Assembly (NCBI GenBank): GCA_003222155.1
Contig: QHUU01000071.1
Span: 1-42,654, forward strand
Origin: Gemmatimonadota bacterium
GTDB lineage: Bacteria; Gemmatimonadota; Gemmatimonadetes; Gemmatimonadales; GWC2-71-9
Direction of reading: 5' to 3'
DNA: 42,654 bases
Positions 3,341-42,104 of the stretch are shown in pieces. The position numbers and the translations under genes were made by a program. Below the pieces are notes generated by a model. That model was not told the DNA's origin. It ran no database searches and saw only the letters and a list, made by a program, of their open reading frames with translations. How positions within the stretch are numbered: the first letter of the stretch is position 1; every line of letters begins with the position of its first letter.

Positions 3341-5127
3341 CGCTGGGGCTCGCCGCGCTGCGGGCCACCGGCGTCGGCGCCCTGGTGCTCCTCATCTGGA
3401 ACCCGGCGGCGGCACGCCTCGGCGTGGGGGACGCACCCCGCCTCGTGCTGCTCGACGCGTCGCTCTCCATGGCGGGGCGGGGTGGGCGGTGGCGCGCGGC
3501 GCTCGATACGGCGCGCGCCCTGGCGCACGGCGACGTGATCTGGCGATTCGGCGCGCGCGTCACGGCCTTCGATACGCTCTCCCCGGGGGACGGCGCCACC
3601 CGGCTCGCGCCGGCGCTCGCCGCCGCAGCGGCGCGCGGCGGCCCCGTGGCGATCGTCACCGACGGCGCCATCACCGATCTGGCCGACGTGCCCCAAGACC
3701 TGCTGCAGCAGGCGCGCATCGCGGTCCTGCCGCGCGCGCCCTTCTTCGATGCCTTCATCGATTCGGTTGCGGGACCGACGAGAGTGAGCGCGGGAGATAC
3801 GGTCCGACTCAGGGTGAGCTATGGGACTGCCGGGGGTCGAGCCGGTGAAAGGCCCGGGAAGGGGGAAGGGCGAAAAGGAACGCTCGTCGTGAACCTGTCC
3901 GGTCGGCGCCTGCTGTCGCGGGACGTCACGCTACCTGACAGCGGGATCGTGTCGACCGATCTCACGCTTCCCCCTTCCCCGGCTGTTCACGGGCCGTTCA
4001 CGGGCTCTTCTCCCTCCGGCGGCTGGCAAACGCTCGAAGTGCGGCTGGAAGGTGTCGCCGGCGACTCCGAGCCCCGCGACGACGCGCGTACCGTCGTGCT
4101 CCGCGTGAGCGCACAGCCGTCGATCGTGCTGCTCGCCTCGCCTCCCGACTGGGACACGCGCTTCCTGGCGCACACGCTCGAGGACGTGGCCCGGGTAGGG
4201 GTCAAGGTCCTCGTGGCGGCCGACCCGGGCGGAAAACGTTGGCGTGACGCCGCTACCCTGGCGGCGGTGGCCCCCGGTGAGGTGGCGCGGGCCGTGCAGG
4301 GCGCCTCGCTGCTGGTCGAAGCGGGTGATCCCACCACGTTCGCGCGGGTCGCCCCCAGGGGCGCCGTTCTGCTCTGGCCGCTCGGCCGCCGCCAGGAAGG
4401 CGACTGGTATGTCCAGCCACCCGCGTCTTCACCCATCGCGGGCGGGCTCGCGGGCGTCGCGTGGGACTCCCTGCCACCCGTCACGGCGCTCGGCGAGCTC
4501 GCGCCCGACAGCTCGGCAACGATCGCCCTCACTGCCCGGCTGGCACGGCGCGGGCCGCCGCGCCCGTTGGTCGCGTTGTCGCAGCGCGGTGGCCAGCGTC
4601 GCGCGACGATCGCGGCGGGAGGACTGTACCGCTGGGCGTTCCGAGGAGGCGCGAGCGCGGAAGCGTATCGCGCGCTGGTGGCCGGGTTGACGGACTGGCT
4701 GCTGGGCGGGGGAGTCGCGAGCGGGGAGCGGTTTGTCCCGATGACGACCGCGATTCCGAACGGGTTGCCGGTCCAATGGCGCTGGCTGGCTGGGGGTGAG
4801 CCGCGCGACGTCGTGGTAGCGCTCACGTCGGCGCACGGGCTGCAACAGGACACGCTGCGGTTCGATGCCGAGGGCCGGGCCGAGCTGTGGCCGGCACCGG
4901 GCCAGTACCACTACGCGGCGGCGCAGGGACCGGAGCGTGGGCTGGTCGTTGTCGATACCTACTCGGAGGAGTGGCGCCCGGGGCCGGTCGTGGTCGCTCC
5001 TCAAGCGGGTGCGGCGGCGGGACGGCTCGCCAGTGTCGCGCTGCGCGACCGTTGGTGGCTGTTCGTGGCGGCGATCGCCGCGTTCACCGCGGAGTGGGCG
5101 TGGCGGCGACGCCAGGGATTGCCCTGA
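3325..5127 (+). CDS. von Willebrand factor A-like membrane protein (BatA-type architecture)
   Basis: A 600-residue protein with a membrane segment at the N-terminus (GLAALRATGVGALVLLIW), a VWA-like domain and a C-terminal membrane helix (WWLFVAAIAAFTAEW) followed by a basic tail. The MIDAS metal-site motif is intact: DASLS in VLLDASLS, a Thr in the ATRLAP segment, and the Asp of IVTDGAIT. The middle holds a Rossmann-like region (QPSIVLLASPPDWDTRFLA onward) like those in VWA/glutamine-amidotransferase-like membrane proteins of diderm bacteria. The GTG at 3325 is inside the upstream gene; GTG at 3337 gives the GTGA overlap typical of this genome and is an equally good start. The segment GKGEGRK is coded by a G-tract repeat. 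Its function is unknown, probably assembly of protein complexes at the membrane. Confidence 0.75.
   Translation: MRRRVTLGLAALRATGVGALVLLIWNPAAARLGVGDAPRLVLLDASLSMAGRGGRWRAALDTARALAHGDVIWRFGARVTAFDTLSPGDGATRLAPALAAAAARGGPVAIVTDGAITDLADVPQDLLQQARIAVLPRAPFFDAFIDSVAGPTRVSAGDTVRLRVSYGTAGGRAGERPGKGEGRKGTLVVNLSGRRLLSRDVTLPDSGIVSTDLTLPPSPAVHGPFTGSSPSGGWQTLEVRLEGVAGDSEPRDDARTVVLRVSAQPSIVLLASPPDWDTRFLAHTLEDVARVGVKVLVAADPGGKRWRDAATLAAVAPGEVARAVQGASLLVEAGDPTTFARVAPRGAVLLWPLGRRQEGDWYVQPPASSPIAGGLAGVAWDSLPPVTALGELAPDSSATIALTARLARRGPPRPLVALSQRGGQRRATIAAGGLYRWAFRGGASAEAYRALVAGLTDWLLGGGVASGERFVPMTTAIPNGLPVQWRWLAGGEPRDVVVALTSAHGLQQDTLRFDAEGRAELWPAPGQYHYAAAQGPERGLVVVDTYSEEWRPGPVVVAPQAGAAAGRLASVALRDRWWLFVAAIAAFTAEWAWRRRQGLP
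3856..3979. repeat. Inverted pair of G-tract repeats inside the VWA gene
   Basis: The 13-base sequence GGGAAGGGGGAAG at 3856-3868 recurs as its exact reverse complement at 3967-3979, with 98 bases between. Both copies are in frame: the first encodes GKGEG, the second a Pro/Ser-rich stretch. The segment lies between the VWA domain and the next folded region, a place expected to vary. The arms could pair in mRNA. Confidence 0.7.
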
Positions 5128-8048: not shown

Positions 8049-8108
8049 GTGCGCGGTACGCGGTGCGCGGTTATCTCCGGAGGCAACCGCGCACTGCGCA
8101 CCGCGCAC
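8049..8108. repeat. Large GC-rich hairpin between recG and asnS
   Basis: Positions 8049-8072 and 8085-8108 are inverted repeats of 24 bases with 22 matches (one G-U pair and one A-C mismatch in RNA). The 12-base loop contains CTCCGGAG, itself a palindrome. Each arm is built from repeats of GTGCGCGGT/GTACGCGGT. No T-run follows, so it is not a textbook intrinsic terminator. It sits just before the asnS promoter and could stop recG transcription, protect the 3' end or be an extragenic palindrome. Confidence 0.8.
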
Positions 8109-8153: not shown

Positions 8154-9452
8154 ATGCCCTCCTTCCACCGCATCGAAGAGCTGCCGCCGCTCGCGGGTCA
8201 GGGTGTGATCACGCGCGGCTGGGTGATGACCACCCGCTCGTCGGGCAAGATCGGGTTCGTGATGCTGCGGGATGGCACCGGATACCTGCAGGTCGTGCTG
8301 TCGAAGAAAGACCTGCCCGAGGCGGCGTGGGACGCGTTCGGCCGACTCACCCAGGAGACGTCGCTCGAGGTCGCCGGCATGGTGCGCGCCGACGCGCGCG
8401 CGCCGGGCGGGGTCGAGCTCACGGCATCCGACGTGAGGATCCTGGGACCGAGCGTCGATTTTCCGATCACGCCCAAGGAGCACGGCACCGCGTTCCTGTT
8501 CGAACACCGCCACCTGTGGCTCCGCAGCCGCCGCCAGGTGGCGATCGCGCGCGTGCGCCACGAGGTGATCCAGGCGATTCGTGACTTCTTCTACGAGCGG
8601 CATTTCGTCCTGGTCGACACGCCGATTCTCACGGGAGCGATCGGCGAGGCGGCGGGCCACCTGTTCGCCACCGAATACTTCGACCTGGGAACCGCCTACC
8701 TCGCCCAGACGGGGCAGCTCTACGTCGAGGCCGCGGCCGCGGCGCTCGGCAAGGTGTATTGCTTCGGACCCACGTTCCGGGCCGAAAAGTCGAAGACCCG
8801 TCGGCACCTGACCGAGTTCTGGATGGTGGAGCCGGAGGTGGCCTGGAACGACTCCGACGCCAACATGGGGCTGCAGGAGGAGTTCGTCAGTTACATCGTG
8901 GCGCGCTGCCTGGAGCGGCGCCGGGCCGAGCTCGCCGAGCTCGAGCGCGACGTGACAGCGCTCGAGGCCGTGCGGCCGCCGTTCCCCCGCATCACGTACA
9001 CGGACGCCGTGGCGAAGCTCCAGGCGCTCGGCGGCGACATGGAGTGGGGACGCGACCTGGGGGGCGACGAGGAGACGCTGCTCGCCAAGCAGTACGACCG
9101 CCCTGTGATGGTCTTCAACTATCCCAAGGCGGTGAAGGCCTTCTATATGAAGGAGAATCCCGCCGACCCCCGCACGGTCCTCAACAACGACATGCTCGCG
9201 CCCGAAGGCTACGGGGAGATCATCGGGGGCAGCCAGCGCGAGGACGACTACGACAAGCTGCTCGCCCGCATCCGCGCGGACAAACTACCCGAAGACGCCT
9301 ACAGCTGGTACCTGGACTTGCGCAAGTTTGGCACGTTCGTGCACGCCGGGTTCGGGCTCGGCGTCGAGCGCACGGTGGCGTGGATCTGCGGCATCGCGCA
9401 CATCCGCGAGGCGATCGCGTTCCCCCGGACACTGTACAAGCTGTGGCCGTGA
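8154..9452 (+). CDS. asnS: Asparaginyl-tRNA synthetase
   Basis: A class IIb aminoacyl-tRNA synthetase of 432 residues. An N-terminal OB-fold anticodon domain (about residues 15-105) is followed by the catalytic core with motif 2 FRAEKSKTRRHLTEFWMVEPE and motif 3 GFGLGVERTVAWICG near the C-terminus. LTEFWMVEPE and GEIIGGSQRE are typical of AsnS rather than AspS, and the inserts of bacterial AspS are absent. It charges tRNA-Asn directly. The start is a choice between ATG 8142 and ATG 8154: the first overlaps the apparent -10 box, so I prefer 8154. The only close upstream signal is the promoter, so asnS looks independently transcribed from recG. Confidence 0.95.
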   Translation: MPSFHRIEELPPLAGQGVITRGWVMTTRSSGKIGFVMLRDGTGYLQVVLSKKDLPEAAWDAFGRLTQETSLEVAGMVRADARAPGGVELTASDVRILGPSVDFPITPKEHGTAFLFEHRHLWLRSRRQVAIARVRHEVIQAIRDFFYERHFVLVDTPILTGAIGEAAGHLFATEYFDLGTAYLAQTGQLYVEAAAAALGKVYCFGPTFRAEKSKTRRHLTEFWMVEPEVAWNDSDANMGLQEEFVSYIVARCLERRRAELAELERDVTALEAVRPPFPRITYTDAVAKLQALGGDMEWGRDLGGDEETLLAKQYDRPVMVFNYPKAVKAFYMKENPADPRTVLNNDMLAPEGYGEIIGGSQREDDYDKLLARIRADKLPEDAYSWYLDLRKFGTFVHAGFGLGVERTVAWICGIAHIREAIAFPRTLYKLWP

Positions 9453-9628
9453 CACGCGAACCACGCTCGGGCTATCTCGCAGGCGGCTTCGTCGTCCTGC
9501 TCGTGGTCCTGTGCGGGCTGTTCTACTACAAGTGGGGCGGCGCGATCCGCACGGTGTCGGGCGTGCGCGCGCTGGGCCGGTGGTCGGGGACGGCCGAGGG
9601 GCTCACCACGGGCTACCGTCGCTCCTGA
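9449..9628 (+). CDS. Small single-pass membrane protein, 59 residues
   Basis: Starts with GTG inside the asnS stop (GTGA overlap) and ends at TGA 9626-9628. It has a short basic N-terminus, one strongly hydrophobic segment (AGGFVVLLVVLCGLFYY, about residues 11-27) and a basic, glycine-rich tail. I do not recognise a family. The overlap with asnS and the clean signal-anchor shape support a real gene. In another frame the following DNA encodes a second hydrophobic segment, so this may be the front half of a two-helix protein broken by a frameshift near 9620. Confidence 0.5.
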   Translation: MTREPRSGYLAGGFVVLLVVLCGLFYYKWGGAIRTVSGVRALGRWSGTAEGLTTGYRRS

Positions 9629-9723
9629 TCCTGGCGCGCGAGACGCGCCCGCGTGTGGCGGTCGCCGTGGCGCTGGGCGCGTGGGTGCTGGCGACCGCGG
9701 CCGGGCTCGTGGCGGGGGCGTAG
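9580..9723 (+). CDS. Possible small membrane ORF or frameshifted continuation
   Basis: An open frame of 47 codons from GTG 9580 to TAG 9721-9723, overlapping the previous small gene by 49 bases. Its second half reads LLILARETRPR followed by a hydrophobic helix (VAVAVALGAWVLATAAGLVA). The helix looks like a genuine membrane segment, but the start has no ribosome-binding site and the first part is unremarkable. It could instead be the C-terminal half of the preceding gene. It ends one base before the convergent mazG stop. Confidence 0.25.
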   Translation: MVGDGRGAHHGLPSLLILARETRPRVAVAVALGAWVLATAAGLVAGA

Positions 9724-9724
9724 C

Positions 9725-10474
9725 TCAGCGCGCCTTCACCTCATCCCACAACCGGTCCAGGTCGGCCAGACCCGCGCGTCCGAGATCGAGCCCGCGCTGC
9801 TCGGCCAGCCGTTCCACGGCCTCGAACCGCCGCGTAAACTTGTCGTTCGCTTGCTCGAGCGCCGCGCGCGGATCGATCGTGAGTTTGCGGGCAACATTCA
9901 CCACCGCGAACAGGAGATCGCCGAGCTCGTCTTGCAACCTTTCCCGTTCCCCCTTTCCCGTCTCCCGCTCCAGCTCGGCCAGCTCCTCTTTGACCTTCTG
10001 TATCGGTCCCGTCGCGTCCGGCCAGTCGAACCCCACGCCCGCGGCCCGTTCCTGCAGCCGGTACGCCATCAGCAGGGGGGGCAACATCGGTGGCAGGCCG
10101 TCAAGGACGCCGCGTTGTCCCTTTCCCTTTTCCCGTTTCCCGCGCTCCCACGATTGCGGCTTTTCGCCGCGCCCGAACAGGTGCGGATGCCGTCGCCGCA
10201 TCTTTTCCTCGACCCCGCGTGTCACGGTCTCCGCGTCGAACTCGCCGCGCTCTTCCCCGATCACAATCTGGAAGGCGAGATGCAGCAGCAGGTCGCCAAG
10301 CTCGTCGCGCACGGCGTCGGGCTCCCCCCGACGCAACGCCTGGTCGAGCTCGAGCGCTTCCTCCACGAGGTACGGGCGCAGCGTGTCGCGGGTCTGGACG
10401 TGGTCCCAGGGGCAGCGCACGCGCAGGTCGCGCACCAGCGCGAGGGCGCGCGCGAGGGCGGTGTCACCAGGCAT
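9725..10474 (-). CDS. mazG: MazG, nucleoside triphosphate pyrophosphohydrolase
   Basis: MazG hydrolyses NTPs and dNTPs to monophosphates and PPi and lowers (p)ppGpp-linked stress signals. The 249-residue protein has two MazG domains. The first carries YLVEEALELDQAL and DELGDLLLHL (about residues 30-72), the second VKEELAELE and DELGDLLFAVVN (about 165-200); both supply the E...ExxD metal-binding pattern. HPHLF and GVGFDWPD are also family hallmarks. Two stretches, ERGKREKGKGQRG in the interdomain linker and ETGKGERER inside domain two, are coded by G-tract repeats and lie where the E. coli protein has unrelated sequence. It is the only minus-strand gene in the first 25 kb, divergent from alr. 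Confidence 0.95.
   Translation of the reverse strand: MPGDTALARALALVRDLRVRCPWDHVQTRDTLRPYLVEEALELDQALRRGEPDAVRDELGDLLLHLAFQIVIGEERGEFDAETVTRGVEEKMRRRHPHLFGRGEKPQSWERGKREKGKGQRGVLDGLPPMLPPLLMAYRLQERAAGVGFDWPDATGPIQKVKEELAELERETGKGERERLQDELGDLLFAVVNVARKLTIDPRAALEQANDKFTRRFEAVERLAEQRGLDLGRAGLADLDRLWDEVKAR
9943..9966 (-). repeat. G-tract repeat in mazG, site 1
   Basis: Read on the minus strand, four G-runs of 3-5 bases are separated by GAC/AAA/AAC-type spacers (GGG, GGG, GGGGG, GGG). This meets the pattern of an intramolecular G-quadruplex and encodes ETGKGERER in the second MazG domain. Confidence 0.7.
10119..10149 (-). repeat. G-tract repeat in mazG, site 2
   Basis: Five GGG runs on the minus strand (plus-strand CCC at 10119, 10125, 10132, 10139 and 10147) with spacers AAA, AAAA, AAAC and AGCGC. 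It encodes the basic linker ERGKREKGKG between the two MazG domains and resembles the ribE repeat. Confidence 0.75.
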
Positions 10475-13192: not shown

Positions 13193-14427
13193 TGGCGCGG
13201 CGCGCGATGCTGATCGCCGGCGTGGTGGTGGTGGCGGCTTGCGTGGAGCGTGTGTCCGCTCCCGGCGCTTGTCCGTTGTTCTGTCCCTCGGGTCAGATCC
13301 AGATCGTCGACACGGTGCTGACGGGCGTCATCTCGGGTGACTCGTCGTTCCGCGGCTACGTGACGGCGCCGCACGCCCCGCTGATGCTCGCGGCCGATCT
13401 CCCCGGTCTCGTGGACGGGCGGCCGATCTTTCGGATCAACGGCAGCGGCTCGCGCTTCGTGTTGAGCGCCGCCGATACCGGAGCGATCCTCGGCGCCGAC
13501 TCGGCGCGCCTGCAGCTCACCGTGGCGCGGCGCGACACCGGGGCGCACAATCTCTCGCTCGCCTTCTACCGGCTGCCCATCACGCTCGATTCCACGACCA
13601 CCTTCGCGGACCTGGCAGGGCCGTTCACCAACTCGCTCGTCAAGCGGGTGAACCTCGATACGCTGCTGGCGCGTCCGGGACGCAAGGACACCATCACCGG
13701 GGACAGCGCCGTGGTCGACACGCTCAACCATGTCCTGGCACTGAGCCTGAAGCTCGACACGGCGGCGGCGCGCTACGTGGGAACGGATTCCGGGACGGTC
13801 GCGTATGGGGTGCGCGTCTCGGCCGACTCGCGCGCCAGCATCGGGATCACCAAGGCGCTGACGTGGCAATGGTACCTGCGGGTCGACTCGGCCGGCACGC
13901 CGGTGGCGCGCACGCCGGGCTCGCTGGGCGCGGCCTTTGCGAGCTTCGTTTTCGACCCGCCGCCCCCGCCCCCCGATTCCACGCTGGCGGTGGGCGGCGT
14001 GCCGCCGGCCCGCAGCATCCTGCGCGTCGCGTTCCCGCGCTTCATCCGCGACTCGTCCCAGATCATCCGCGGGACGCTGACGCTCGTCCCTGCCGCTCCG
14101 GTGCAGGGCGTACCGTCGGATTCGTTCGTGGTCGAGGCGCACACCGTGTTCACCGACGTGGGCGCCAAGTCGCCGGTCATCGTCGACGCGACGCGCACCG
14201 ACACCGCCATCGTTCACGTCGGCGCGAGCGACACCGTGCGGATCGAGGTGACCAACCTGCTGCAGTTCTGGGCATCCGACACCACCCACGCGACGACGCT
14301 CGTGCTGCGCGCCCAGCAGGAAGCGACGTCCTTCTCGCTGATCCGGTTCTATCCCTCGCTCGCCCAGGCCTTCCGGCCGGCGCTGCGCATCACCTTCGTG
14401 CGACGCTTCCCCTTCGGGCAACCATGA
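13189..14427 (+). CDS. Lipoprotein of unknown function
   Basis: A 412-residue protein with a type II signal sequence: positive N-terminus (MMARR), hydrophobic core and lipobox VAAC at about residues 15-18. The mature part is rich in Ser, Thr, Asp and beta-forming residues, with a six-proline run before DSTLAVGG near residue 265. I recognise no catalytic motif. The ATG overlaps the cdd stop (ATGA) and the stop overlaps the next outer-membrane gene (ATGA), so the lipoprotein and the barrel are probably made together and may form one surface complex. Sorting to the outer membrane is inferred. Confidence 0.7.
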   Translation: MMARRAMLIAGVVVVAACVERVSAPGACPLFCPSGQIQIVDTVLTGVISGDSSFRGYVTAPHAPLMLAADLPGLVDGRPIFRINGSGSRFVLSAADTGAILGADSARLQLTVARRDTGAHNLSLAFYRLPITLDSTTTFADLAGPFTNSLVKRVNLDTLLARPGRKDTITGDSAVVDTLNHVLALSLKLDTAAARYVGTDSGTVAYGVRVSADSRASIGITKALTWQWYLRVDSAGTPVARTPGSLGAAFASFVFDPPPPPPDSTLAVGGVPPARSILRVAFPRFIRDSSQIIRGTLTLVPAAPVQGVPSDSFVVEAHTVFTDVGAKSPVIVDATRTDTAIVHVGASDTVRIEVTNLLQFWASDTTHATTLVLRAQQEATSFSLIRFYPSLAQAFRPALRITFVRRFPFGQP

Positions 14428-15536
14428 CGACTCGCATCGCCTGGGTCGTCGGCGTGGTGCTGGTGGGCCCGGCCCTTGCGGGCCGGGCCAAGGCCGCCGC
14501 CCAGGATTCCCAATTCGGGATCCGCGGATTGGGCACGCCCGGTCGGGGGGAATCGGTGCGTTCCCGCTCGACGGGGGGAGCGTTCGGTCCGTTCGACCCG
14601 CTCTCTCCGCTCACCGAAGCGGGGCTGGCGGACGTGCCGCAGCTCACCGCCACCGCGATGCAGAGCGCCTCGTACCGCGACGCCGAAATCGCCGGGACGA
14701 CGACCGCGTTGCGCGCCACGCGGTTTCCGCTGTTGAACGTCGCGGGGCGGGTGCATCGGCGACTCGCGATCGCCGCGGGGTTTACGACCTACCTCGACCG
14801 GTCGTGGGACGTGACGTTGCGCGACTCGGTCCTGCTGCGGGGTACGCTCGAACGTTACACCGACGAGGTCACGAGCGACGGGAGCATCGCCGATCTCCGG
14901 TTGGCGGCCGCCAGCCGGTTGACGCGCCGCATCGCGGTCGGCGCGGGCCTGCATCTGCTCGCCGGCTCGACGCGCGAGACCGCCGAGCGCCGCTTCGACG
15001 ACACGACCTTCCACACGGTGCAGCAGCTCGCCGAGGTGCGCTACTCCGGCATGGGCGTGTCGGGGAGCCTGCTGCTGGGCGTCGCCCCGGGGCTCAGCGT
15101 GATCGGCTGGGCCCGGGCGGACAACCGGTTGCGCGCCACGGTGGCCGACACGACGAGCGCCGAGACCGACCTGCCGCGCATGGCGGGAGGCGGGATGCTG
15201 TTTTCCCCCAGCCCGAGCGTCCGATTCGGCGGGTCGGTGGCATGGCGCGGTTGGGCGCGCGCCGGCGCCGGCGCGTTCGACACCTGGAGCTGGTCGGCGG
15301 GAGCGGAGATCGGTGGCGGGCGCATGCCGTTCCGGTTCGGGGTGCGGGGTGGCCAGCTGCCGTTCGGGCCGGGTACGATCGCACCGACCGAATTCGCCGC
15401 CGCCGCGGGGTCCGGGCGCGCGTTCGCCCAGGGGCGCGCGCTGCTCGATGTAGGTGTGGAGCGGCTGCAGCGTCGGGGAGGGGGACTCACCGAGCGCGTG
15501 TGGACCGCACTCGTGGGCCTCACCGTGCGTCCGTGA
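14424..15536 (+). CDS. Putative beta-barrel outer-membrane protein
   Basis: A 370-residue protein with an N-terminal signal peptide (hydrophobic VVGVVLVGPALA, cleavage expected near AKA/AAQ at about residue 26). The rest has alternating hydrophobic residues, many Gly, Arg and aromatic residues, and strand-like stretches such as RRIAVGAGLHLLAG and VRFGGSVAWRGWARAG, as in FadL/OmpP1-like or generic outer-membrane barrels. It ends in VGLTVRP rather than a terminal aromatic residue. Two palindromes lie in its first 110 bases: a perfect 10-bp hairpin at 14466-14489 and CCCAAT...ATTGGG just after. Neighbouring overlaps tie it to the lipoprotein upstream and mtaB downstream. Function unknown. Confidence 0.65.
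   Translation: MTTRIAWVVGVVLVGPALAGRAKAAAQDSQFGIRGLGTPGRGESVRSRSTGGAFGPFDPLSPLTEAGLADVPQLTATAMQSASYRDAEIAGTTTALRATRFPLLNVAGRVHRRLAIAAGFTTYLDRSWDVTLRDSVLLRGTLERYTDEVTSDGSIADLRLAAASRLTRRIAVGAGLHLLAGSTRETAERRFDDTTFHTVQQLAEVRYSGMGVSGSLLLGVAPGLSVIGWARADNRLRATVADTTSAETDLPRMAGGGMLFSPSPSVRFGGSVAWRGWARAGAGAFDTWSWSAGAEIGGGRMPFRFGVRGGQLPFGPGTIAPTEFAAAAGSGRAFAQGRALLDVGVERLQRRGGGLTERVWTALVGLTVRP
14466..14489. repeat. Perfect 10-bp GC hairpin with TTGC loop in the signal-peptide codons
   Basis: GGCCCGGCCC at 14466-14475 and its exact reverse complement at 14480-14489 flank the loop TTGC. It is in frame and codes the end of the signal peptide (VGPALAGRA). On the opposite strand the loop reads GCAA, as in the mtaB hairpin at 16141-16160. 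Confidence 0.75.
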
Positions 15537-16795
15537 ACGTCTACTTCCATACCTTCGGCTGCAAGGCGAACCAGTACGACACGGCCGTGGTGCGACAGGC
15601 GTTCGCCGATCAGGGGGCGACCGTGGTGGACGACGCCGCGATGGCGGACCTCGCGGTGGTGAACTCGTGCACCGTGACGCACGAGAGCGAGGCGAAGCTG
15701 CGGCGCTTCGTGCGCCGTCTGGCGCGCCAGAGCGAGCGCCTCGAGACGGTCGTGATGGGCTGCGCCGCGGCCCGCGACGCGGGCGCGATAGCGGCGCTCC
15801 CGCGCGTCCGGGCGGTCGTTGGGGGAGCGGAGCCGGCTGCGGTGTTGCGAGCTGCGGGGATGACAGGGGTTGGGGGCTCGGGATTCGGGACTCGGGCGCT
15901 GAGCCCCGGATCCCGAGCCCCGGGCCCCGAGCCCCGCGCCAGATCCCGCGGGCTCCTCAAGATCCAGGACGGCTGCGACGAGCACTGCACCTTTTGCGCG
16001 ACGACCATCGCGCGGGGGGCCAACCGGTCGCGGGGGATTCCGGAGCTGGTGGAGGAGGCACGGGCGCTGGCGGAGCACCACGCGGAGATCGTACTGACGG
16101 GCGTGCATATCGGGACGTATGGGCGGGACCGCACTACTGACCCCCGGCGCAAGCCCGGGGATTTGGGAGCATTGCTCGAGGCCCTCATCACGGCCGTGCC
16201 CTCCGTGCGCTTCCGGCTTTCCTCCATCGAAGCCACCGAAGTGGACGACACCGTCGCCCGGCTCCTGATCGATGCCCCCCGGAATCTCGCGGCACACCTG
16301 CATGCCCCGTTGCAATCGGGCTCGAACCGCGTGCTCAAGCGCATGGGCCGCCACTGGTACACGGCCGAATCGTACCGGGCGCGCCTGGAGTGGCTTGCCG
16401 CCCGTCTGCCGGTGCTCGGCCTCGGGGCGGACATCATCGCCGGCTTCCCGGCCGAGACCGACGACGATCACCGTGCAACCGTGGCGCTGGTCGCGGCGCT
16501 CCCGTTCACCTATTTGCACGTCTTTCCCTACAGCGAGCGTCCGGGCGCCGCCGCGGCGCGGCTGGGCGCGCCCGTCCCGCCCCGCGTGCTGCACCAGCGG
16601 GCGCTCGACCTGCGCCGGCTGGGAGAGGCGAAGGCACAGCGGTACCGAGCGGGCCGCGTGGGCCAGCGCGCGGACGGCGTCGTGAGCGGGCACGGGGCGG
16701 GCAAAATCGAGGTGCTCACGCAGGACTACGTTTCGGTCTATCTTCCCACCCAAGAGTGGGATGGAAGCGCCCGCTTCGAGGTGACCGTCCGATAG
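15533..16795 (+). CDS. mtaB: MtaB, tRNA t6A37 methylthiotransferase
   Basis: A radical SAM enzyme that converts t6A37 to ms2t6A37 in tRNAs reading ANN codons. The 420-residue protein has the N-terminal [4Fe-4S] cysteines C10 (FGCKANQYD), C46 (NSCTVT) and C77 (MGCAA), the radical SAM triad C148/C152/C155 in CDEHCTFC, and a C-terminal TRAM-like segment. FGCKANQ and NSCTVT distinguish MtaB from MiaB. Residues about 111-140, between the N-terminal and radical SAM domains, are an unusual Gly/Ser/Pro/Arg-rich insert coded by a large palindrome, and a second small hairpin codes DPRRKPGD near residue 205. The GTG start overlaps the upstream stop as GTGA. Confidence 0.95.
   Translation: MNVYFHTFGCKANQYDTAVVRQAFADQGATVVDDAAMADLAVVNSCTVTHESEAKLRRFVRRLARQSERLETVVMGCAAARDAGAIAALPRVRAVVGGAEPAAVLRAAGMTGVGGSGFGTRALSPGSRAPGPEPRARSRGLLKIQDGCDEHCTFCATTIARGANRSRGIPELVEEARALAEHHAEIVLTGVHIGTYGRDRTTDPRRKPGDLGALLEALITAVPSVRFRLSSIEATEVDDTVARLLIDAPRNLAAHLHAPLQSGSNRVLKRMGRHWYTAESYRARLEWLAARLPVLGLGADIIAGFPAETDDDHRATVALVAALPFTYLHVFPYSERPGAAAARLGAPVPPRVLHQRALDLRRLGEAKAQRYRAGRVGQRADGVVSGHGAGKIEVLTQDYVSVYLPTQEWDGSARFEVTVR
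15873..15921. repeat. Palindromic G/C-tract insert in the mtaB linker
   Basis: The left arm 15873-15889 and the right arm 15905-15921 pair with one G-U-type difference over 17 bases; the arms contain GGGCTCGGGATTCGG and its near reverse complement, and further CCCCGAGCCCC copies follow to about 15935. It is in frame and codes about 25 residues of low-complexity linker between two conserved domains. Confidence 0.75.
16141..16160. repeat. Small GC hairpin with GCAA loop in mtaB
   Basis: CCCCCGGC at 16141-16148 and GCCCGGGG at 16153-16160 pair at 7 of 8 positions around the loop GCAA. It codes PRRKPG in a loop where MtaB proteins normally have a shorter segment. Confidence 0.6.
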
Positions 16796-18491: not shown

Positions 18492-20633
18492 GTGCGTGGT
18501 GCGTGGTACGTCGTCGTCCCCGTTCTGGGGGCGGCCTTCCTCATGGTGAGAAGTGCCCCGCTCGGTGCCGCGCTCGGGATCATGACCGTCGCGGGGGCGT
18601 GGTGGGGCACGGCGGCGGGGCGGGAGCGCGAGGCGAGCTGCGCGGGGACGTGGGAAAAGGAAAATGGGGGAACGTCGCGCGCGGCGACCGTCCGGCTGGC
18701 GGATCGCGCGCCCGCGAGCGGCGGCGTGCTCGATGCGGACGTGCTGCCAGGCAGCTGCGGCGGCCCGCTGCGGTTGCGCTGGCCCGAGCAGCATGTCGCC
18801 CGCGGCGGGACGGAGTGGGTAGTGGCGGGCCGCTGGAGTGGTGCCGCCGGCCGTGGAGTGCTGGTGGTGCGTCGGATGATTCAGCTCGACGCCACACCGC
18901 GCGGCCGCGGCGCGGTGCGCGACGGGCTCGCCGCCCGGAGCGCGGAGCTGTTCGGGGCGCGGGCACCGATCGTCGACGCACTGGTGTTCGCACCCAACGC
19001 GACGCTCGATCCCGACATTCGCGAGCGCTATGTCCGCTCGGGACTGGCGCATCTCCTGTCCATTTCGGGCCTGCACGTCGGGTTCCTCGCCGCCTGGCTC
19101 GCGCTATTGCTGCGGAAGCTGCGGTTCGCGCCCGGGGCCCGCTTCGTCGCCACGGTCCTGCTCTTGGGTGGTTATCTCTGGCTGCTCGGCCTGCCGCCGC
19201 CCGCAGTGCGGGCGGGCGCGATGCTGATGCTGGCCGAGATCGCCCGGCTGCGTCAGCGAGTGGTGGCGCCGCGCGGCACGATCGCGCTCTCGGCGCTCGG
19301 CGTGGTGCTGGCGGATCCGTTCGCGTTACGCTCGGTAGGCGCCTGGCTCTCGGTGGCCGGGATCGCCGCGGTGATCTGGGCCGACCGCGCATGCGCGCGG
19401 GAGCGGCGAGTCGTCCGAGTGGTCGCGCCCGCGCTCGCCGCCACGCTCCTCACCGCGCCCATCAGCGCCTTCACGTTCGGCACCGTGGCACCGGTCGGCG
19501 TGCTCGCGAACCTGGTGGCGATCCCGCTCGCCGGGCTCGCGGTGCCGGGGCTGGTGCTGGCGCTGGCGCTGTCGTGGGTGATGACGGGTCTCGCGCATCT
19601 GGTCGCTGCCGGGTCGGGGTTGGGACTCGCGCTGCTCGATCTCGTGGCGAGCACGGCCGCGGCCGTGCCGGGCGGGCACATCGTGATGGTTGCCGGGTGG
19701 GCGGCGGGGGCGCTCTGGGCGGGCGTCGCGCTGGTCGCCTGGTGGCTGTGGCGGTCACCACGCCGCCCGTGGCTGATCGCCGCGCGCGTCGGTTTCGTGA
19801 CCACGGTTCTCGTCGCGACGTCTCTGCGCGACGTCGTTGGGCTCGACGCCTGTCGCTGCTTGACGGTACATTTTCTCGATGTCGGGCAGGGGGATGCAGC
19901 GGCGCTACGCACCCCCCACGGACGTTGGATCGTGATCGACGCGGGCCCCCGCACGCCCGAGAGCGATGCCGGACGGCGTGTGGTGGTCCCGTTCTTGCGG
20001 CGCCAGGGCGCCAGCCGGGTGGCGGTGGCGGTGGCGACGCATGGCGACGCCGATCACCTGGGCGGCATGCCCGCCGTGGTGGAGGCGTTCGATCCCGAGC
20101 TGGTGCTCGAGCCGGGGGAGCCGCTGGGGCGGCCGCTGTATCTCGAGTTTCTCGCACGGGTAGAAGAGTCGGGCGCGCGCTGGCATCCGGCGCGCGCCGG
20201 TGAGCGGATCGAGGTGGACGGTGTCGCGCTGGAGGTGCTGAGCCCGGATTCGCTCTGGATGGCGCTGCCACTCGACGTGAACGAGCACGGCGTGGTGCTG
20301 CGCGTGTCGTACGGCACGGTGCGGCTCCTGTTCCAGGCGGATGCGGGCGTGCCGGTCGAGGCCCGACTCGCGCGGACGGTGGGGCCGGTCGAGCTTCTGA
20401 AGGTGGGGCATCACGGCTCGCGCAGCGCGACCTCGGAGGCGTGGCTCGACGAGTTGACGCCGCACGAGGCGGTGATCAGCGTGGGCCGGCACAACCGCTA
20501 CGGCCACCCGACGCCCGAGGTGCTCGCGCGCCTCGCGGCGCACGGCGTCACGGTGCTCAGGACCGACGAGCGCGGCACGATCACTTTCTTCACGGACGGG
20601 CACGGTGCACGGCTCCGAAGTCATCACGATTGA
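18492..20633 (+). CDS. comEC: ComEC/Rec2 DNA uptake channel
   Basis: ComEC carries single-stranded DNA across the inner membrane during natural transformation. The protein is at least 713 residues: an N-terminal membrane/OB region, the Competence domain with HLLSISGLHVGFLAAW and about ten helices, and a C-terminal metallo-beta-lactamase domain with FLDVGQGDAAALRTP, THGDADHLGG (about residue 516), LLFQADAG and LKVGHHGSR. GTG 18492 is the first canonical start, but in-frame codons from 18402 encode a typical first ComEC helix (PPILFLSISFGAGLAAGL), so the true start may be a CTG (18420) or ATT, or arise by TAG readthrough from comFB. The segment WEKENGG is coded by a G/A-rich tract at 18652-18674. 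Confidence 0.93.
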   Translation: MRGAWYVVVPVLGAAFLMVRSAPLGAALGIMTVAGAWWGTAAGREREASCAGTWEKENGGTSRAATVRLADRAPASGGVLDADVLPGSCGGPLRLRWPEQHVARGGTEWVVAGRWSGAAGRGVLVVRRMIQLDATPRGRGAVRDGLAARSAELFGARAPIVDALVFAPNATLDPDIRERYVRSGLAHLLSISGLHVGFLAAWLALLLRKLRFAPGARFVATVLLLGGYLWLLGLPPPAVRAGAMLMLAEIARLRQRVVAPRGTIALSALGVVLADPFALRSVGAWLSVAGIAAVIWADRACARERRVVRVVAPALAATLLTAPISAFTFGTVAPVGVLANLVAIPLAGLAVPGLVLALALSWVMTGLAHLVAAGSGLGLALLDLVASTAAAVPGGHIVMVAGWAAGALWAGVALVAWWLWRSPRRPWLIAARVGFVTTVLVATSLRDVVGLDACRCLTVHFLDVGQGDAAALRTPHGRWIVIDAGPRTPESDAGRRVVVPFLRRQGASRVAVAVATHGDADHLGGMPAVVEAFDPELVLEPGEPLGRPLYLEFLARVEESGARWHPARAGERIEVDGVALEVLSPDSLWMALPLDVNEHGVVLRVSYGTVRLLFQADAGVPVEARLARTVGPVELLKVGHHGSRSATSEAWLDELTPHEAVISVGRHNRYGHPTPEVLARLAAHGVTVLRTDERGTITFFTDGHGARLRSHHD
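18652..18674 (+). repeat. G/A-tract repeat in comEC
   Basis: GGG, GG and GGGGG runs separated by AAAA and AAAAT, encoding WEKENGG in the soluble N-terminal region. It resembles the repeats in mazG, mcm and ribE but is less regular. Confidence 0.45.
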
Positions 20634-23880: not shown

Positions 23881-24315
23881 ATGGTGCGTATCGCGCTCGC
23901 GGGGATTGCCTGGCTGTGTCTCCTGCTCCCCCCGGTCCCTCCACGGCAAGCGCCCTCGCTCATCGAGCACGACTCCGTGGTCGCGACGCTGCAGCCGGGA
24001 CCTCACAACGGCGGCGGGGAGACGATGGCATACTCGTTCTTCGCACGGGCGCCCGGCCTGAACCTGGTCTTTCGCAAACGCGCGTTGCATCGGGGCGCAG
24101 CGATCGGCTACCACCGGCAGGCAGAGGACGAGGTTTACTACGTCGTGAGCGGGACGGGCGAGCTCACGTTGAACGGCGTACGCTCGGTCGTGGTCCCCGG
24201 GACAGCGATCCTCACCCGTCCCGGGAGCTCGCACGGCTTGCGACAGGTGGGCTCCGACGACCTGGTCGTCATCATCGTGTATCAACTCACGACCGTACAC
24301 AGGCAGGGCGCCTAG
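23881..24315 (+). CDS. Secreted cupin-domain protein
   Basis: A 144-residue protein with a signal peptide (MVRIALAGIAWLCLLLPPVPP) and one small cupin barrel. Motif 1 is YHRQAEDEVYYVVSGTGEL (G-x-H-x-E-type ligands, about residues 79-98), and motif 2 is GTAILTRPGSSHGL. The metal ligands are present, but this small family does not reveal a substrate. A strong AGGAGG ribosome-binding site stands ahead of the ATG. It is followed after three bases by a short membrane gene, with which it is probably cotranscribed. Confidence 0.8.
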   Translation: MVRIALAGIAWLCLLLPPVPPRQAPSLIEHDSVVATLQPGPHNGGGETMAYSFFARAPGLNLVFRKRALHRGAAIGYHRQAEDEVYYVVSGTGELTLNGVRSVVVPGTAILTRPGSSHGLRQVGSDDLVVIIVYQLTTVHRQGA

Positions 24316-24318
24316 ACC

Positions 24319-24480
24319 GTGTCCAAGGTCCTCACCTTCCTCGGCGCGAGCATCGGGGGCGCCATCGGCTGGTGGCTCGGCGCGCGCATCGGAACGATGA
24401 CGGCCTTCGTGGTCAGCACGGTGGGAACAGGTGTGGGCGTTTACGCGGGGCGCCGGATTGCGGACTCGCTGCTCGCGTGA
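24319..24480 (+). CDS. Small glycine-rich membrane protein, 53 residues
   Basis: GTG 24319 to TGA 24478-24480. It has two hydrophobic segments rich in small residues, LGASIGGAIGWWLGARIG and MTAFVVSTVGTGVGVYAG, ending RRIADSLLA. The spaced glycines resemble glycine-zipper membrane proteins. The stop overlaps the ATG of the next gene by one base (TGATG), which supports expression. Function unknown. Confidence 0.65.
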   Translation: MSKVLTFLGASIGGAIGWWLGARIGTMTAFVVSTVGTGVGVYAGRRIADSLLA

Positions 24481-35539: not shown

Positions 35540-35854
35540 ATGCCGACCTACGAGTACAAGTGCCCGGCCGGGCATGCCTTCGAAAAGTTCTACCCGACGA
35601 TGAACAACCAGCGGCGGGTGAAGTGTCCCACCTGTGGCAAGATGGCCGAGCGTCAGATCTCCGGTGGAGCGGGGCTGGTCTTCAAGGGTTCCGGCTTCTA
35701 CATCAACGACTACAAGCGTGCCGGTGCGGCGAACCCCGAATCGGCGGACGGACCGAAGCCCGAGTCGAAGCCCGAGTCGAAGCCCGAGGCCAAGCCCACG
35801 ACCGAATCGAAGCCCGACAGCGCAAAGAAGAAAAAGCCCTCCGGCGACAAGTGA
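35540..35854 (+). CDS. FmdB family zinc-ribbon protein
   Basis: A 104-residue protein with the FmdB start MPTYEYKC and a small zinc ribbon: C8, then H12 where the second Cys of the usual CxxC would be, and C29/C32 in CPTC. The ribbon continues to GGAGLVFKGSGFYINDYK, the common FmdB end. A Lys/Pro/Glu/Ser tail of about 35 residues follows, coded by a 12-base tandem repeat (PESK units). Such proteins are thought to act in regulation or translation, without a firm role. The stop overlaps argS as GTGA. Confidence 0.88.
   Translation: MPTYEYKCPAGHAFEKFYPTMNNQRRVKCPTCGKMAERQISGGAGLVFKGSGFYINDYKRAGAANPESADGPKPESKPESKPEAKPTTESKPDSAKKKKPSGDK
35755..35790 (+). repeat. 12-base tandem repeat in the fmdB tail
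   Basis: Three in-frame copies of GAAGCCCGAGTC (the third with one change), with more degenerate copies to about 35819. They encode the PESK units of the disordered C-terminal tail. The copy number could vary between strains. Confidence 0.75.
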
Positions 35855-41514: not shown

Positions 41515-42104
41515 GTGCCGTGGGGCGGATCGCGAAAGCGACGCGGCAGACGGGAAACGGGAAACGGGAAACGGGATTGACGCTCACGATCCGTGCTCCG
41601 TACAAGGGCGTCAAGCGGGGTGAGAGCATCGCGGTGAGCGGTGCGTGTCTCACGGTCGAGCGGGTGCTGAAGGGTGGCTTCGCCGTGCACGTCGTGGAGA
41701 CGACGGAGGGGCGGACGCTGTTCGGGGAATACGCCGTCGGACGCCCGGTGAATCTGGAGCGGGCGCTGCGCGCCACCGATCGCCTGGGGGGGCACATCGT
41801 GCAGGGGCACGTGGACGGCGTCGCGGTGGTGGAGCGGGTCGCGCGGAGCGGGGACGCATGGGTCTACGACCTGCGAGTGCCGCGGGCGGTGCGGGACGTT
41901 TCGATCCCGCACGGCGCCCTCACCGTCGACGGCGTAAGTCTGACGATCAACGATCTGCCGGGTCCCGACTCGGTGCAGATTTCGCTCATCCCGTTCACGC
42001 GCGAGCAGACGACGCTCGGAACACTGCGCGTCGGCGACCGCGTTCACGTGGAGGGTGACGTGCTGGGGAAGTACGTGAGGCAACTATGTCGCACGACAAC
42101 ATAA
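41496..42104 (+). CDS. ribE: Riboflavin synthase, alpha chain
   Basis: Dismutates two 6,7-dimethyl-8-ribityllumazines into riboflavin and a pyrimidine. The 202-residue protein has two lumazine-binding repeats: MFTGIV...[13 protein letters not shown] and [12 protein letters not shown], then [17 protein letters not shown]. The N-terminal loop at residues about 18-28 ([10 protein letters not shown]) is coded by a GGGAAAC tandem repeat, where other family members have a short variable turn. The stop overlaps ribB by 19 bases, the same distance as at the ribD junction. Confidence 0.97.
41552..41575 (+). repeat. Perfect GGGAAAC tandem repeat (quadruplex motif) in ribE
   Basis: Three perfect GGGAAAC heptamers followed by GGG. 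The four G-triplets with four-base loops match a canonical G-quadruplex motif. Three heptamers equal seven codons, so the repeat keeps the frame; it encodes GNGKRETG in a surface loop. Confidence 0.85.

Follow-up and report, generated by a model that had tools for sequence, protein, structure and literature searches.

Convergent heptamer arrays in the linker of an MtaB-like protein and in other housekeeping genes of a Gemmatimonadota genus

Facing heptamers in the linker of an MtaB-like protein

The window, that is, the whole 42,654-nucleotide stretch of Gemmatimonadota DNA analysed here, contains an mtaB-like gene. By E-value the best model for its product is TIGR01579 MtaB (9e-90), with a score of 301.9 that lies below the curated cut-off of 357.05; the product passes the subfamily model TIGR00089 and the family is that of the MiaB/RimO methylthiotransferases. 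The linker between the two domains of the protein contains 63 bp (15873-15935) made of nine heptamers that keep the reading frame: GGGGCTC GGGATTC GGGACTC GGGCGCT followed by GAGCCCC GGATCCC GAGCCCC GGGCCCC GAGCCCC or, as a pattern, GGGRYTC units facing GARYCCC units (Table 1). The stretch encodes VGGSGFGTRALSPGSRAPGPEPRA, located between the N-terminal domain and the radical-SAM motif LKIQDGC.

The inverted-repeat arms, 15873-15896 and 15912-15935, are 24 nt long and 83% complementary, with an alternative pairing of 15866-15893 and 15901-15928. The top inverted-repeat score of the gene is 15 compared to 7-12 in 30 codon-shuffled versions and, being above all of them, exceeds chance. An earlier note on this DNA had described a palindromic in-frame insert that forms the MtaB linker, and we recover exactly such an insert. 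A quadruplex motif with four G-tracts is predicted on each strand. All unit types that we tried can be read without stops in all six frames, but so can 204 of the 256 GGG heptamers, and we have discarded the idea that this property is a special design. We see no sign of a benefit of the array to MtaB itself.

Table 1. Coordinates of the mtaB-like gene, its linkers and the heptamer arrays in the window
Feature	Position	Strand	Remark
GTRCGCG convergent pair (third heptamer type)	8049..8108		intergenic, between two genes
GGGAAAC-type array	9938..9966	-	within coding gene
GGGAAAC-type array	10113..10142	-	within coding gene
mtaB-like gene	15533..16795	+	GTG start, overlapping the preceding gene's stop
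Interdomain-linker stretch	15819..15947	+	collinearity with closest relative, G001, breaks
Left array	15873..15896	+	GGGGCTC GGGATTC GGGACTC GGG; GGGRYTC type
Spacer CGCT	15897..15900		tail of degenerate fourth unit
Right array	15901..15935	-	five GARYCCC-type units (three exact), facing left array
Second variable MtaB linker	16118..16165	+	CCCCGGCGCAAGCCCGGGG here; some relatives have GGGAAAC-like or GGGRYTC arrays
GGGAAAC array	41552..41575	+	within coding gene

The arrays are dispersed and, where paired, convergent

A genome search for the 17-base arm showed that it is not unique. The array pattern GGGRYTCGGGRYTCGGG (GGGRYTC) has 42 matches in the genome as opposed to four for a reversed-pattern control, and GGGAAACGGGAAACGGG (GGGAAAC family, at most one mismatch) has 38 as opposed to none. 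The existence of a second heptamer type beside GGGAAAC, proposed in the earlier note, is thus borne out, both kinds of array being dispersed in the genome; the count of two families was too low, since the window also has GTRCGCG, and relatives have GGGATGC, GGGGAGC and further types. The 15873-15935 stretch is best read as belonging, with its short loop, to the dispersed convergent pairs of the form (GGGRYTC)n, spacer, (GARYCCC)n.

For 19 array places of the genome we listed candidate frames and scanned 30 of these with Pfam; many of the arrays overlap frames with Pfam matches. Hosts or neighbours include the E1/E2 fusion of 2-oxoglutarate dehydrogenase, GpmI, DXR, RsmB, HemC, KARI/aconitase, ThyX, FdhD and MutL, the last with an array between DNA_mis_repair and MutL_C.

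The orientation census covered 16 loci of the genome itself and 40 loci of relatives, the latter a subset of the pattern matches in 61 genomes; an array had to comprise two or more exact units plus GGG, and pairs were counted up to a distance of 700 bp. Of the strict pairs, all 25 are convergent, with none divergent or on the same strand, and 34 arrays are single. Some of the pairs are orthologous, so these are not 25 independent events, and the MtaB array is classed as single by these criteria, its right arm being less regular. Spacers of strict pairs range from 4 to 527 bp, and arm lengths and loops differ between copies. The convergent pairs are located in linkers, signal-peptide regions and intergenic gaps.

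The GGGRYTC array pattern is matched in 16 of the 61 genomes (the genome itself and relatives), including eight of the ten of the genus. Across the phylum the distribution is patchy: the tight convergent GGGRYTC pair occurs in only 11 of 298 genomes, one of which, G135, has 112 matches on each strand. Pairs of this kind are present in named genomes of Gemmatimonadetes, Planctomycetes, Acidobacteria, Xanthomonadaceae and others (at least 115 stretches, among the matches listed). Only two viral stretches match the tight pair, and we do not retain viral spread as an explanation.

Some distant copies have an organization of their own. Loci L427-L432 of G135 carry very regular GGGACTC arrays of up to approximately 25 units; the arms that face them are short and have similar cores. 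In the Pirellulales genome CSMAG_2275 (L158, L163, L170, L171 and others) the heptamer arms form the stem inside a longer, MITE-like palindrome, the outer sequence and loop of which are common to the copies.

Several palindromes and a native form at the same sites

The MtaB linker is not conserved among relatives (G000 is the genome under study, the other G numbers are its relatives). We are therefore not dealing with a unique arm in a linker that all relatives share: the arm is dispersed and the linker varies. A native-looking linker (...RVDPVLRRF...ARGWLKIQDGC) is present in G006, G007 and G009 and is common to more distant relatives. The linker is a CCCCCTCTCC...GGAGAGGGGG palindrome in G001, G003, G004 (two copies) and G008, and a GTAGGGGCGCAGCATGCTGCGCCCCTAC palindrome, more or less complete, in G002 and G005; palindromes outside the genus are found in G071, G035, G081 and G019.

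These states are intermixed on the MtaB tree: the sisters G000 and G001 carry different palindromes, and their nearest outgroup, G006, is native. The tree has 28 rows, with G028 and G004a omitted by choice, G035, G090 and G027 lost at motif cutting and five genomes not extracted. If the native form cannot return, the tree would require at least five palindrome gains. Since recombination could restore the native form, we limit the firm claim to this: at least three palindrome kinds plus the native form occupy one site. The DNA flanking the linker is collinear and 89-92% identical between G000 and G001, and the linker is among the few breaks in their alignment. In a G028 copy of mtaB (L152 / L311) a TGA precedes the first linker, and the second linker contains GGGRYTC arrays.

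Two further sites vary in a similar manner. The GpmI loop carries heptamers in G000, G002 and G003, a changed unit type in G001 and G006, the native sequence in G004, G005, G007 and G009, and is short in G008. In GpmI, as in MtaB, native residues are replaced and not merely displaced. One intergenic site has heptamers in G000, G001 and G002, a CCCCGGGC-type palindrome in G003, G007, G008 and G009, and the CCCCCTCTCC type in G005 (G004 is unaligned); G006 has 7 nt there, an empty form and a near-clean difference. Further dispersed palindrome families of the genus, CCCCCTCTCC, GTAGGGGCGCAGCATGCTGCGCCCCTAC and CCCCGGGCGCAAGCCCGGGG, use the same landing sites as the heptamers. The CCCCCTCTCC...GGAGAGGGGG palindrome of the MtaB linker of G001, G003, G004 and G008 resembles the intrastrand triplex motif TMECO as described in PMC4666352, and is a repeat family separate from the heptamers.

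RsmB: arms match across a domain that is exchanged with them

The two strict arrays in RsmB of G000 are 218 bp apart, in loops flanking a ferredoxin-like domain; the arms bracket a conserved stretch of 195 nt. The loop unit is GGGRYTC in G000 and G006, GGGAAAC in G001, G002, G007 and G072, GGGATGC in G005, G083, G019 and G073, and GGGGAGC in G004 and G024, with further units elsewhere, and the second loop is the reverse complement of that species' first-loop unit. Of 37 loci, 21 were extracted and 20 were usable, 18 of these in the near clade. For the 18 species, the best ungapped arm complementarity is 17.1 within species versus 8.45 across species (permutation p at most 5e-5), and it reaches at least 10 in 16 of them, G071 and G020 being below. 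Using another motif rule (20 of the 37 loci), p is 5e-5 overall and 1.5e-4 for the 12 loci outside the genus. Among 1081 pairs of windows within RsmB, the four that overlap both loops differ by 6.5-7.8; the next differs by 1.07 and the sd of the rest is 0.27. We did not find the arm match in more distant family members.

The unit types require 12 changes on the RsmB tree. Identity to the left of the core, in the core and to the right of it is 94/67/95 for G000-G001, 89/63/89 for G005-G007 and 85/63/87 for G005-G002, while near pairs of the same type show no drop in the core: 88/89/90 for G000-G006 and 90/90/91 for G002-G007. In its core G001 resembles G002 and G007 (77-79% identical) more than its sister, G000. 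Core minus flank identity is -4.4 in 14 same-type pairs and -11.8 (sd 4.8) in 106 different-type pairs; in distant pairs of the GGGATGC type it is -5.7 to -14.8, that is, these cores are as diverged as those between types. The RsmB arms and the domain have been replaced together as a cassette.

This weakens the case for pure template switching behind the joint change of unit type that separates G000 from G001, as the core was exchanged along with the arms. With cassette exchange, template switching is needed only for the origin of each matched type. Each matched type must nevertheless have arisen at least once, which still calls for a process coupling the two arms, though with fewer coupling events than there are changes on the tree.

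Arms in the E2 subunit and in a Tat-signal gene

The E2 subunit has arrays in both linkers flanking a PSBD-like region, with arms approximately 200 nt apart. The unit type is GGGAAAC in six species and GGGGAGC-like in three, and arm complementarity is 22.7 within versus 16.4 across species (p 0.002); the case is weaker than RsmB because the two unit classes may follow descent. Here the core diverges irrespective of unit type: core minus flank identity is -7.7 in same-type and -9.1 in different-type pairs (18 each), and in the same-type pair G000-G006 the core is 68% identical compared to 93 and 89 in the flanks.

A TIM-barrel gene whose product has a Tat-like signal carries one arm in the leader and one in the signal region, on either side of the start codon (G002, G005, G006, G007 and one G000 copy).

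Relation to known repeats

Rickettsia palindromic elements are palindromic DNA carried in frame in protein genes, with one conserved element sequence in all copies. The earlier note had likened the MtaB insert to them. The likeness stands insofar as a dispersed palindrome lies in frame in a protein gene (63 bp in mtaB), but it is superficial: the arrays have no conserved element sequence, their loops vary by copy, and their arms consist of tandem heptamers and can be separated by native sequence. A Rickettsia-type palindrome of fixed sequence is contradicted by the unit order, which is not mirrored between arms, and by the native coding sequence that separates the arms in RsmB, E2 and the Tat-signal gene. 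REP elements have a GTAG-type tetranucleotide at the foot of the hairpin and, in the RAYTs, a Y1 transposase as partner; the heptamer arrays begin without GTAG. To our knowledge, heptamer repeats of bacteria have hitherto had no known origin or role.

Rehm et al. (PMC4692102) describe quadruplex-forming heptamers, GGGAATC / GGGNATC in Xanthomonas and GGGGA(C/T)T in Nostoc. The Xanthomonas heptamers often form convergent pairs (70 in one genome and 75 in another), are 89-93% intergenic and are under-represented in genes. Our arrays share the period of seven, the GGG plus four bases and the dispersal with the repeats of both genera, and the frequent convergent pairs with those of Xanthomonas. 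They depart from the Xanthomonas repeats of that account (PMC4692102) in that many lie in frame in housekeeping genes, that sites and species differ in unit type, and that the two arms match each other from either side of a conserved domain. Judged by sequence, the arrays belong with the convergent quadruplex-type heptamer repeats of Xanthomonas, as a variant.

Coding inverted repeats whose proteins are still functional are described in the mitochondria of Nematomorpha, with template switching as a possible cause of their concerted arms (PMC6649704, which also mentions the Rickettsia elements). The nematomorph repeats have perfect arms encoding conserved residues, whereas the arms here are tandem heptamers in variable loops. 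According to PMC8604942 and PMC8794818, template switching homogenises inverted-repeat arms: one arm is rewritten from the other, with many changes at once, in coding genes too. The published switches involve short arms and favour short spacers (PMC8604942), in contrast to tandem arrays up to approximately 200 nt apart. In the open-licence literature that we searched, there is no report of a protein with facing arrays in two of its loops that co-switch unit type across species, nor of arrays bounding an exchanged domain. What appears to be new is that arrays lie in frame in the linkers of housekeeping proteins and that their arms need not be adjacent.

Origin of the arm pairs

The arms of an element resemble each other in unit make-up (0.604, compared to 0.500 between elements). 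In unit order one arm does not mirror the other (297 versus 306.9 in shuffled arms, sd 7.0); with the order of R/Y variants unmirrored, we rejected a hairpin kept base by base. In 26 coding pairs, sense-strand mismatches comprise 38 A.C and 23 G.U, that is, selected mRNA structure is opposed by the lack of a G.U excess. Unmirrored order and lack of a G.U excess together mean that mRNA pairing does not look selected.

We favour, with confidence somewhat above even, a process at the DNA level: arm pairs would arise or be homogenised probably by fold-back template switching, the resulting cassettes would then recombine, and tolerant proteins would keep them. G-rich heptamer arrays would spread to new sites by ectopic copying, with slippage altering array length. 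During replication a folded-back strand would let one array template the other, giving a reverse-complement partner of the same type nearby. Matched arm-domain-arm alleles could move between lineages by homologous recombination, perhaps via hairpin or quadruplex breakage, and selection would purge the pairs except where the protein tolerates a loop rich in Gly, Pro and Arg. The long spacers of RsmB and E2 (approximately 200 nt) seem a difficulty for template switching, published cases favouring short ones. The 34 strict arrays that lack a strict partner count against a pair-forming explanation, and no close genome pair shows an intermediate of template switching with one converted arm.

A non-autonomous mobile palindrome, similar to the Rickettsia elements, MITEs or REPs, that is inserted in genes as one unit and tolerated in linkers is the alternative we take most seriously, though we think it unlikely. 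It would account for the dispersed copies, for the empty form at the one intergenic site, for the several palindrome families at the MtaB linker and for the Pirellulales arrays contained in a longer repeat with common flanks and loop. However, the copies in the genus have no common element sequence or loop, arms can stand 195-530 nt apart, with native coding sequence between them in RsmB and E2, and the native residues of MtaB and GpmI are replaced and not merely displaced.

It is quite improbable that the arms were colonised independently, the prevailing heptamer of a genome filling tolerant loops and a preference of frame or peptide setting the orientation, so that arms match without coupling. 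GGGAAAC matches are indeed abundant in G001, G002 and G007, which carry GGGAAAC in RsmB, but G000 has GGGRYTC on both RsmB arms and GGGAAAC on both E2 arms, all 25 strict pairs are convergent, and in E2 of G003 the complementarity extends beyond the heptamers into GGTACC.

Similarly improbable, in our view, is a hairpin or G-quadruplex selected in mRNA or DNA for expression control, ribosome pausing at domain borders or a signal-peptide role: quadruplex motifs lie on both strands, the Xanthomonas heptamer repeats form quadruplexes in vitro (PMC4692102) and pairs flank domains and a Tat signal, but there is no G.U excess on the sense strand, arms are unmatched unit by unit, the GTRCGCG type has no G-triplets and close relatives carry native, array-free alleles.

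Beyond the DNA-level origin that we favour, heptamer pairs might act as borders of exchangeable cassettes: forming around domains by fold-back copying, they would break and recombine preferentially and so drive the replacement of single domains between species, for example in RsmB. We consider this doubtful; if true, the pairs would be a DNA-level motor of domain shuffling in bacterial housekeeping genes.

The related genomes form a natural series in which unit types switch as facing pairs in housekeeping proteins and, in RsmB, the domain travels along. The origin of heptamer repeats and their part in local recombination become testable. Compensatory matching of distant sites, usually read as selected RNA structure, can stem from DNA processes and cassette exchange.

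Other repeats and islands in the window

In the 8049-8108 gap, relatives have GGAACGC or GTGCGTG heptamers, depending on the species. In the signal-peptide region of the gene preceding mtaB (14397-14560), five of the eight genomes compared have octamer arrays that face each other across the hydrophobic core (p 0.013); the other three have none.

Low-identity islands between G000 and G001 (25-57% over 75 nt at the lowest, with surroundings at approximately 90%) are located at 3796-4065, 18524-18747 and 24243-24371, among others. Complementary edges are not a general mark of such islands: 15 of the 16 in the window lie within the 95% point of control edges and one lies above it, which indicates that exchange does not require arrays.

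Approximately 280 nt at 9450-9732 have no counterpart at this junction in G006, G008 and G009, and G001 is larger there. A tandem repeat with a 12-base unit, CGAAGCCCGAGT, in 3.7 copies is found at 35754-35797.
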